A stretch of DNA of 64,000 bases from Halohasta litchfieldiae (GTDB lineage: Archaea > Halobacteriota > Halobacteria > Halobacteriales > Haloferacaceae): NCBI RefSeq assembly GCF_002788215.1, contig NZ_CP024845.1, positions 3,100,001 through 3,164,000 on the forward strand, written 5' to 3'. This document shows positions 5,390-7,637 of the stretch, piece after piece. The notes below the pieces were generated by a model. It searched no databases. It was not told the origin of the DNA and saw nothing but the letters and a program-made list of their open reading frames with translations. Positions within the stretch are counted from its first letter, which is position 1. Every line of letters starts with the position of its first letter. The translations under genes and the position numbers were made by a program.

Positions 5390-5510
5390 CGCCGCAACCG
5401 ACTCGGTTTGATTTTATTGTTATCAACGCGATCCAGCGATGGCTTCGTCTAACGTCGACACCGACACGCGGCGAACCTGTCAGTGAGTACTATTATAACT
5501 GATGCGTGTA

Positions 5511-5531
5511 CTGGTATAGCTACCATACCAG
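5511..5531. promoter_or_regulatory. Inverted repeat (operator candidate) before the integrase-like/CheF operon
   Basis: CTGGTAT (5511-5517) and ATACCAG (5525-5531) are perfect 7-bp inverted arms with a 7-nt spacer. A TATA-like TATTATAA lies at 5491-5498 and the ribosome-binding sequence AGAGGTGA begins inside the right arm (5530-5537). The repeat therefore sits at or just after the expected transcription start, the position of an archaeal repressor operator. Alternatively it forms an mRNA hairpin that masks the ribosome-binding site. The sequence is seen; the function is inferred. Confidence 0.5.
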
Positions 5532-5541
5532 AGGTGAAAAA

Positions 5542-6384
5542 ATGGACGAGCGCATGTCAGGTCGACCGGAAGCACTGTCAGCGGCATCGGTCCCGCCATC
5601 GAAGGCACTTGATCCGGCGGCGTTCTATAGCTTATATTTGGGCGGCTTGGCGTTTTCCGACCGACAGCGGCGGGTTCGGTCGACCGCCATCCTCATCCTC
5701 AGCGGTCGACTCGGGTTGCGACCGGGAGAGATCCAGCATCTCCACGAGGGATGGATCGACTGGGACCGCGGCGTGATCCGGATTCCAAAGCGCGATCCCT
5801 GTGCCTGCAATCTCTGCTACGAGACCGCTCGACACCGCCAGCGCGCGGGCGACGGTCGACAGGTACTCGATATTCTTGCGGAGTCGACGTGGACCCCACC
5901 CGGTGGTGAACGGACCGCCCCCTTCGGGTGGTCCCAACGACTGACCGCAGTGCTGGCGACACTCTGTGATGTGGAGGGCTATCTCGGCCTCTCGGCGGAG
6001 GCGATGGCCCGACTCATCAATCGGAGCGCCCATCAGGCTGAGGGATTGGACTACGACAGTATCGATATCCAGAGCCTCAGAGCGACCGCGGCGGCGTTTT
6101 TCGCCGACGCTGGCTTTTCGGCCCGCCGGATCGCGGGCCTGCTCGGCGAAGATGTCGACACCGCCGGTGCGTTCGCCCGGCGAGAAGGTGGCGACGCCCG
6201 CGAACAGCTCTTCGCGCAGTTCACCGAGTCGACGGTCGCAGATCCCGGTGCGGCGTATGCACTGCTCGCCGAGCCGGAACCGTTCGATCACGAGCCGTTC
6301 GATCCGCGGACGTACGACGCCGACTGGCTCGCGCAGAGCAGCGGGCGAGCTACCCCGACTCGCTCCGCAACCCACGGCCGGTGA
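5542..6384 (+). CDS. Tyrosine-recombinase-like protein with lost catalytic residues
   Basis: A 280-residue protein. I chose ATG 5542 over the in-frame GTG at 5506 because an AGAGGTGA ribosome-binding site sits directly before it. The fold signature of phage integrases is visible: LGLRPGEIQHL (Arg60 = catalytic Arg I), WIDWDRGVIRIPKRD, and the C-terminal SLRATAAAFFADAGFSARRI (Arg180 = Arg II) followed by LLGEDVDTAGAFARR. The box-II His is Gln/Ser, the GH motif is GE (Glu203) and the nucleophilic Tyr is Phe211, so strand cleavage is not expected. A CxCxxC cluster (Cys87, 89, 92) is inserted after the beta-hairpin. The stop overlaps the GTG start of the CheF gene (GTGA), indicating translational coupling. 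A domesticated DNA-binding role is inferred. Confidence 0.7.
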   Translation: MDERMSGRPEALSAASVPPSKALDPAAFYSLYLGGLAFSDRQRRVRSTAILILSGRLGLRPGEIQHLHEGWIDWDRGVIRIPKRDPCACNLCYETARHRQRAGDGRQVLDILAESTWTPPGGERTAPFGWSQRLTAVLATLCDVEGYLGLSAEAMARLINRSAHQAEGLDYDSIDIQSLRATAAAFFADAGFSARRIAGLLGEDVDTAGAFARREGGDAREQLFAQFTESTVADPGAAYALLAEPEPFDHEPFDPRTYDADWLAQSSGRATPTRSATHGR

Positions 6385-7637
6385 CCAGTTCGGTCGACAG
6401 CTCGTTCAACGTCGCCGATCTCGGCGACCGGATGCATCTCGACCGCGACAGCGAGCTGGTCGACGAAGACGGTGCAGCCGTCACGCTGCAGCAGTGGGTA
6501 AGCCGCCGCGAGGCACAGCGATACGACGCTCTCGACGCGGAATCGACCGATCAGTCCAAGGGGGCGGCGAGCCGAGAGGCAGGCTCGGCCGATGGTCGGT
6601 CGACAGCCGCCGAAAGTCACTCAACAAATCAGTCCGGACAACTGGACATAGCACCGGACGAGGGGAGTACAAGCGATTCCGAGGGACAGACCGGTGGGAC
6701 GGCCAGCGTCGACAGCGGTGGCCTCTTCGATCCACGAGAGCGAATCTCGGGGGACCCAATCCTCACGACCGAGACGACAGTTGCCTGTTCCGGGCTTGCC
6801 GATGGCCAGCCAGTCGCCTGCCGTGTCGTGCTGGGTGCGTCCGAGTTGGTGCTGGCCCGCGCCGACGACACGATGGGCGAGGAGTACACAGCCATCCCGG
6901 TCGACTCCATCGTCGACCTCTCGCCGGATCAGATTCCCTCGGAGTTCGCCGAGACCTTCGAGTCGACGGTCGCCATCGCCTCCGACGAAGGTGAGGGTCG
7001 ACAGCTGGCGATCATCGAACTCCGGGGGAACAAACAGATCGGCTTTGCGAACGAACTGTTCAAGCTGATCCTCCAAGGTTGTGAAATCATCGTCACCCAC
7101 CCTGCAAAGAAGGGTGGCCGCGTCTTAGAAACCGATCCGGTCCCCGGCGAGCTTACAGTCGACGACCGGTCGGTATCGATCACCGCCGCCGACGGAGACG
7201 ACGAGCTGACGATTCGGCTGTCGGATATCATCCACATCGGGACGGGGAAACAGACCTACGAGAACCTCCGTATGCGGGGGCTGTCGATTCGCCATCTCCA
7301 CGCCTCCAAGGAGGCGGCCGAAACCGCAATCAAGCTCCGAGATGATAGGAAACAAAAACTGTTCGAGCGGTTCGTCAGACAGAGCTACCGGAAACGGAAA
7401 CGGAAAATCGAGCAGCTCACGATCACCGAGGCGTTCAAGGAGGTCCTCGTTGCGCTCTACTCGGCCAGCGACGAGATGGATCTCTCGATGATTATCGATA
7501 AAAACCCCGGCGAACTCCAAGACGTATTCGACTCGCTACAAGACGTTGGGCTGGTCCGCATGACAGACGACGGGACGGTACTCACCGGCCTAGGTCGGGT
7601 CGTCGTCAACGAGAAGATACAGGATGTAAATACATAA
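6381..7637 (+). CDS. CheF-family archaeal taxis protein with long N-terminal extension
   Basis: A 418-residue protein with a GTG start overlapping the preceding stop. Residues from about 118 on match the archaeal CheF family (DUF439): successive beta-rich segments, ATHPAKKGGRV-like motif (here VTHPAKKGGRV), a helical EALVALYS-like element (EVLVALYSASDE) and a winged-helix-like end closing with LGRVVVNEKIQDVN. CheF proteins link CheY and the Che machinery to the archaellum motor in haloarchaea. Residues 1-117 are an unusual acidic, Ser/Thr/Gly-rich extension beginning FNVADLGDRMHLDRDSELVDEDG. No other che or archaellum gene is nearby, so this is a stand-alone paralogue paired with the integrase-like protein. 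Whether it acts in taxis is unproven. Confidence 0.78.
   Translation: MTSSVDSSFNVADLGDRMHLDRDSELVDEDGAAVTLQQWVSRREAQRYDALDAESTDQSKGAASREAGSADGRSTAAESHSTNQSGQLDIAPDEGSTSDSEGQTGGTASVDSGGLFDPRERISGDPILTTETTVACSGLADGQPVACRVVLGASELVLARADDTMGEEYTAIPVDSIVDLSPDQIPSEFAETFESTVAIASDEGEGRQLAIIELRGNKQIGFANELFKLILQGCEIIVTHPAKKGGRVLETDPVPGELTVDDRSVSITAADGDDELTIRLSDIIHIGTGKQTYENLRMRGLSIRHLHASKEAAETAIKLRDDRKQKLFERFVRQSYRKRKRKIEQLTITEAFKEVLVALYSASDEMDLSMIIDKNPGELQDVFDSLQDVGLVRMTDDGTVLTGLGRVVVNEKIQDVNT

Follow-up and report, generated by a model that had tools for sequence, protein, structure and literature searches.

Two overlapping reading frames on the chromosome of Halohasta litchfieldiae, one resembling a tyrosine recombinase without its full catalytic set and the other the chemotaxis protein CheF, raise the question of whether they form an operon, a decaying remnant or a single gene. 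CheF is described as an adaptor that links CheY-P to the archaellum switch; it binds CheY-P through its C-terminal domain and the terminal carboxylate, and its PH domains are proposed to face ArlCDE (PMC9126983). What the CheF2 paralogue of haloarchaea does has not been settled. OE2404R, the CheF2 of Halobacterium salinarum, binds CheY, CheD, CheC2, FlaCE and FlaD, and its deletion has a weak phenotype (PMC2666748).

The stretch analysed here (the window) comprises 64,000 nucleotides, positions 3,100,001-3,164,000 of a single-contig haloarchaeal genome of 3,332,022 bp; coordinates below are those of the window unless a contig is named. The upstream frame (5542-6384, plus strand) and the CheF-like downstream frame (GTG 6381 to 7637, plus strand, 418 residues) share a GTGA overlap, exactly as originally predicted. 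Their neighbours, named by eye, are a RecJ/DHH-like gene, a ZIP-like transporter gene and an RqcH-like gene. The locus does not lie in the che gene region, and the distance from che genes that had been noted is confirmed: the che-cluster CheF is found at about 1.76 Mb, ~1.34 Mb away. We consider it about an even bet that the locus is one gene, frameshifted here, encoding a dead tyrosine-recombinase domain, a flexible acidic linker and a CheF2-type domain, and that its product is a signal-coupled docking protein, most likely docking on DNA. The anatomy of the fusion is firm, whereas its mechanism is inferred. The features of the locus are:

5511..5531, strand not applicable: imperfect inverted repeat, 8/10 pairs, not significant and not conserved
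5542..6384, plus strand: tyrosine-recombinase domain, predicted dead; ATG start, 280 codons up to a TGA attributed to the frameshift
6325..6360, plus strand: frameshift stretch (7-nt net deletion relative to four close relatives), its exact place uncertain by alignment
6345..6380, plus strand: CheF-frame codons 5' of the GTG, encoding the conserved ASYPDSLRNPRP of the fusion
6381..6725, plus strand: interdomain linker, acidic and of low complexity; translation could restart at GTG 6381
6726..7637, plus strand: CheF2-type domain with two PH-like domains and a C-terminal CheY-P-binding-type domain, ending in IQDVNT

The relatives reveal the organisation of the gene. When each protein was searched against 170 genomes of the same family, the strong matches to one and to the other came from an identical set of six further genomes, in 6/6 of which they formed one uninterrupted frame. 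Order- and family-wide profile searches added the later members and brought the total to 16 including the window. The relatives are those of Halohasta litorea (G046), H. salina (G047) and Halonotius terrestris (G060), a metagenome-assembled genome (G474, contig L086), and G159, G160, G161, G326, G385, G502, G397, G333, G172, G488 and G491. A single frame of ~570-850 residues holds the recombinase and CheF parts in all 15 of these haloarchaeal genomes, and the window copy is the only split one (1/16). The carriers span two haloarchaeal families; no fusion was found outside them in samples of 392 genomes from the order and 391 from the class. The expectation that the pair would be conserved is thus borne out in a stronger form, the two parts being kept together as one protein, and the same result overturns both the coupled gene pair and the stand-alone CheF of the original prediction.

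The split in the window can be traced to the junction. The distance from the EPFD motif to the NPRP motif is 96 nt in all four closest relatives and 89 nt in the window, which holds an additional, earlier EPFD at a 15-nt offset that, used as the anchor, gives -8 instead of the 7-nt difference. In the CheF frame, the window encodes SYPDSLRNPRPVTSSV over the GTG and the codons before it; 5' of the GTG this frame still reads ASYPDSLRNPRPV, as in the relatives, and retains the conserved NPRP motif. Given the 7 nt missing from the junction in the window and the position of NPRP upstream of the GTG, the GTGA overlap is most simply explained as a side effect of a deletion that shifted the reading frame within the linker of a fused gene. 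What had been taken for an unusual 117-residue acidic N-terminal extension is indeed acidic (net -16) but is the interdomain linker. The deletion would leave two polypeptides in this strain, the second of which requires translation to resume at or near GTG 6381. The window copy would therefore be newly broken or newly split, and may either be failing or work as two chains.

How far this copy has decayed bears on the strain and not on the family. There is a serious possibility, somewhat short of even, that the 7-nt deletion is inactivating and that the two frames are decaying remnants of a pseudogene, as the shifted frame and the single split copy among 16 would suggest. Against such decay, no other stop interrupts ~700 codons, the window branch is not faster in either tree, the GC3 pattern is intact on both sides of the junction, and the in-frame GTG overlaps the stop and would permit a restart. 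A sequencing or assembly error that hides an intact fusion is unlikely: all relatives are continuous and both halves are otherwise intact, but the difference amounts to 7 nt and not to a single base in a homopolymer, even if a true gap of 6 nt plus a 1-nt error could produce it. Two separate, translationally coupled genes in an operon that carries a palindromic operator at its 5' end are highly improbable despite the GTGA overlap, being contradicted as the ancestral arrangement by the single frame in 15/15 relatives, the NPRP upstream of the GTG and the non-conserved palindrome, and could hold solely as a recent state of the window copy.

The inverted repeat itself, proposed as a regulatory element at the 5' end of the operon, finds no support. 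The repeat CTGGTATAGCTACCATACCAG pairs at 8/10 positions; comparable 21-mers occur 75 times in the window (1.2 per kb), and a repeat as good arises in 12% of cases when the intergenic stretch is shuffled. It was absent upstream of the fusion in all relatives examined, where no conserved operator was found either, and was rejected as an operator on both counts.

The fold of the upstream part is that of a tyrosine recombinase, as had been proposed. Pfam returns no more than an integrase match below threshold for this protein; the AF2 model of the domain reaches a pLDDT of 86 (24-row alignment), and its top Foldseek matches in the PDB are all tyrosine recombinases (probability 1.00, with modest E-values of ~2e-3). 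For the catalytic residues, the HxxR and Tyr columns were fixed by profile alignment to XerA-like and XerD chains, and the Lys column was assigned by alignment to active relatives rather than by structure superposition. Active haloarchaeal relatives carry the set R-K-H-R-W-Y. Numbered from the ATG at 5542, the window has R60, P120 in place of the Lys, Q177 in place of the HxxR His, R180 and F211 in place of the Tyr; the box-III Trp of the active relatives is deleted, and Glu203 is the next residue. The Phe at 211 is therefore as predicted. The supposed loss of both His holds for the HxxR His only, the box-III residue of the active relatives being a Trp and Glu203 merely its neighbour.

Across the family the losses go further. 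Thirteen fusion members could be aligned: Lys, His and box-III Trp are each found in 0/13, Arg I in 7/13, Arg II in 10/13 and Tyr in 3/13 (the rest being F in 7, M in 1 and V in 2). The remaining three, scored by eye, keep both Arg, have Phe at the Tyr column and lack Lys and Trp, with the His in G491 only. This brings the family to Lys 0/16, Trp 0/16, His 1/16, Arg I 10/16, Arg II 13/16 and Tyr 3/16, and none of the 16 has an intact catalytic set. Judged by these residues, the domain is catalytically dead throughout the fusion family, with all recombination chemistry lost. The residue states originally called for the window were right, including the retention of both catalytic Arg, but the loss of the Lys at Pro120 had been missed and the Arg are not conserved in the family. 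The three members with a Tyr at the catalytic column, which would nominally speak against an inactive lineage, nevertheless lack Lys and His.

Other features of the domain concern its surface and architecture. In the model the catalytic domain is not preceded by a helical one, i.e. the core-binding domain is absent, as it is in the short stand-alone relatives. Arg56, Arg124 and His66 are invariant in 24/24 dead and active relatives, and Arg133 nearly so. Lysine is scarce in the fusion domains (0-2 each), some of which are quite acidic (pI 4.4-5); examined as a pointer to DNA binding, the charge of dead domains overlaps with that of active ones. A CxCxxC motif (C87, C89, C92) is, like His66, invariant in 24/24 dead and active domains (about 5737-5817), and the four residues may form a metal site with a structural role, specific to this integrase family.

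The downstream part belongs to the CheF family, in agreement with the original assignment. PF04283 matches at 114.7 bits against a cut-off of 25 (E=7e-33), the AF2 model has a pLDDT of 86, and the closest fold is the CheF crystal structure 7ovp (E=2e-13, probability 1.00); along the full chain the TM reaches only 0.52, in line with a flexible elongated protein. The PH-PH-CTD fold of CheF is present in the model. Most fusions end in xDVNx, matching the IEDVNM end of the genome's own CheF2; in G326 and G385 the C-terminus of the CheF part has diverged.

Set against known systems, the fusion shares with the CheF2-type CheF/DUF439 proteins (OE2404R; 7ovp, 7od9) the two PH-like domains, the CheY-P-binding-type C-terminal domain and the xDVNx ending; it differs in its additional recombinase domain and linker, and in sitting away from che genes. 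DUF439 has been described as confined to che regions, with the exception of two H. marismortui paralogues (PMC2666748). The recombinase domain is of the same fold and family as haloviral and plasmid tyrosine recombinases (the HCTV-5 integrase, PhiCh1 Int1 with its phiH1 orthologue, and haloarchaeal plasmid integrases), at ~26-36% identity, and its distant relatives on haloarchaeal plasmids and viruses include those of HCTV-5, CGphi46 and PhiCh1 (Int1). The PhiCh1/phiH1 Int1 gene is located in an invertible tail-fibre region (PMC6210493). The short stand-alone integrases that align with the domain mostly keep R-K-H-R-W-Y and are unfused, whereas the fusion clade has lost this chemistry. A eukaryotic counterpart is provided by the crypton-derived domesticated recombinases of vertebrates, in which the recombinase domain was recruited as a non-catalytic module into host proteins; these are of independent origin and have other partner domains.

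Both domains trace back to single ancestors. The fusion recombinase domains form one clade (96/96) relative to the short stand-alone and the longer integrases. In a tree of the fusion domains and the CheFs of the carrier genomes, the fusion CheF domains form one clade (100/99) within the CheF2-type branch, apart from CheF1, and a strict one-clade test is not rejected (AU p=0.067). These concordant clades point to one fusion event, the sources of which would be a CheF2 paralogue and the haloviral/plasmid integrase family. Pairwise dN/dS lies at 0.12-0.44 for the recombinase domain and 0.10-0.37 for the CheF domain, and reaches up to 0.75 in the linker, where one pair is saturated; both domains are under purifying selection. 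The proposal of a domesticated, inactive recombinase with a CheF-like partner is thus strengthened by the single protein in 15 other genomes, by its one origin and by selection on both parts.

The genomic setting is chromosomal, the gene standing by itself amid core genes. In three Halohasta species the fusion occupies the same locus between DHH/RecJ-like and ZIP-like transporter genes, and in other genera it adjoins unrelated chromosomal genes (both by eye). At the loci viewed, no mobile-element genes were seen beside it, and it was never found inside a che cluster. Separate full-length CheF, ArlDE-family and CheW genes are present in 12/12 carriers tested, and 9/9 carriers in the second family are CheF-positive. 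CheF is common anyway (134/170 and 98/146 genomes in the two families), and because most relatives have it, the link to CheF-carrying genomes lends weak support; che co-occurrence was rejected as proof of function, with which it is consistent.

What the fused protein does can be approached from its parts. By analogy with CheF2, its CheF part would keep the CheF contacts, CheY-P on the C-terminal domain and the archaellum switch proteins on the PH domains, and we infer such binding of CheY-P and motor proteins for the fusion. The recombinase part would be a docking module, most likely one that binds DNA without cutting, and the whole protein would act as a regulator or tether that links a DNA site to the state of chemotaxis or the archaellum. 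DNA binding is contested. The retained fold, the arginines common to active enzymes and the ancestry count in its favour; the missing core-binding domain, the lysine depletion, the acidic members and the loss in 6/16 of Arg I, which contacts a DNA phosphate in active enzymes, count against it. It is a tentative suggestion that the fusion is an archaeal chemotaxis-responsive DNA binder, in which the CheF2 part reads CheY-P or the archaellum state and acts through the linker on a dead recombinase bound at chromosomal sites, for gene control or polar DNA tethering.

A possible alternative, equally tentative, is a variant CheF adaptor that works at the chemotaxis/archaellum machinery, with the dead recombinase as a protein-protein docking or dimer-spacing module off the DNA. 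The retained CheF2-type PH and C-terminal domains would fit such an adaptor, as would the acidic, lysine-poor recombinase domains of several members, the 6/16 members that have lost Arg I and the 3/16 that have lost Arg II, and the ArlDE-family and CheW genes of all carriers tested. The retention of the arginines common to active enzymes is harder to reconcile with it, there is no known reason for choosing a recombinase fold, and the gene was never found in a che cluster. A signal-coupled protein that docks on DNA is rated slightly above a pure protein-docking CheF variant.

A literature search that did not reach most subscription journals found no published CheF-recombinase fusion, only incidental matches; both domains are known, and to our knowledge the fusion architecture and its spread have not been described. 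A CheF2 joined permanently to a dead recombinase implies a second CheF output, possibly on DNA; if a DNA-bound output is true, the taxis pathway would be linked directly to gene control or polar DNA tethering. The fusion is a defined protein in cultured, named species (Halohasta litorea, H. salina and Halonotius terrestris) and adds an archaeal case of a recombinase under selection despite lost chemistry. It also serves as a warning for annotation, in that overlapping 'coupled' genes can be frameshifted fusions.

Several minor observations accompany these results. In G326 a stand-alone CheF-like gene (L100:6721-7683, minus strand) lies in tandem with the fusion (L100:4374-6299, minus strand) and falls inside the fusion CheF clade; as it groups with the fusion's CheF domain, a local duplicate or fission product is suggested. 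Contig L086 (JAQCNK010000131.1) was assigned to a Haloarcula sp. bin, but its fusion groups with Halonotius (99/97), suggesting either mis-binning or recent transfer. The linkers of L068 (G160) and L069 (G159) hold the near-repeats DTTDSTAGDAMDSARD and DGSARPNTSAST; they are spacers of low complexity that change fast.

The longer haloarchaeal integrases (460-560 aa; L070, L071, L072, L105 and L115) have a tail motif (P.PF..EPF, PR, YDP) downstream of the recombinase domain in common with the fusions, but end in apparent transmembrane segments (by eye) where the fusions end in CheF. Such transmembrane-looking ends are seen at L070:3700-5139, L072:4338-5777, L105:3964-5559 and L115:3768-5438, and it would be unusual for an integrase to be tethered to the membrane. 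The catalytic residues are present in L070 and L072, whereas L105 has lost the HxxR His; in L070 and L072 the integrase adjoins a gene for a helicase-looking protein of ~1,160-1,220 residues. Finally, the Halonotius group (L123, L124, L125; G056-G060) has an expansion of CheF, of which no published description was found, with 6-9 CheF-like matches per genome; some of these forms are ~220 residues long and match only the second PH and the C-terminal domain.
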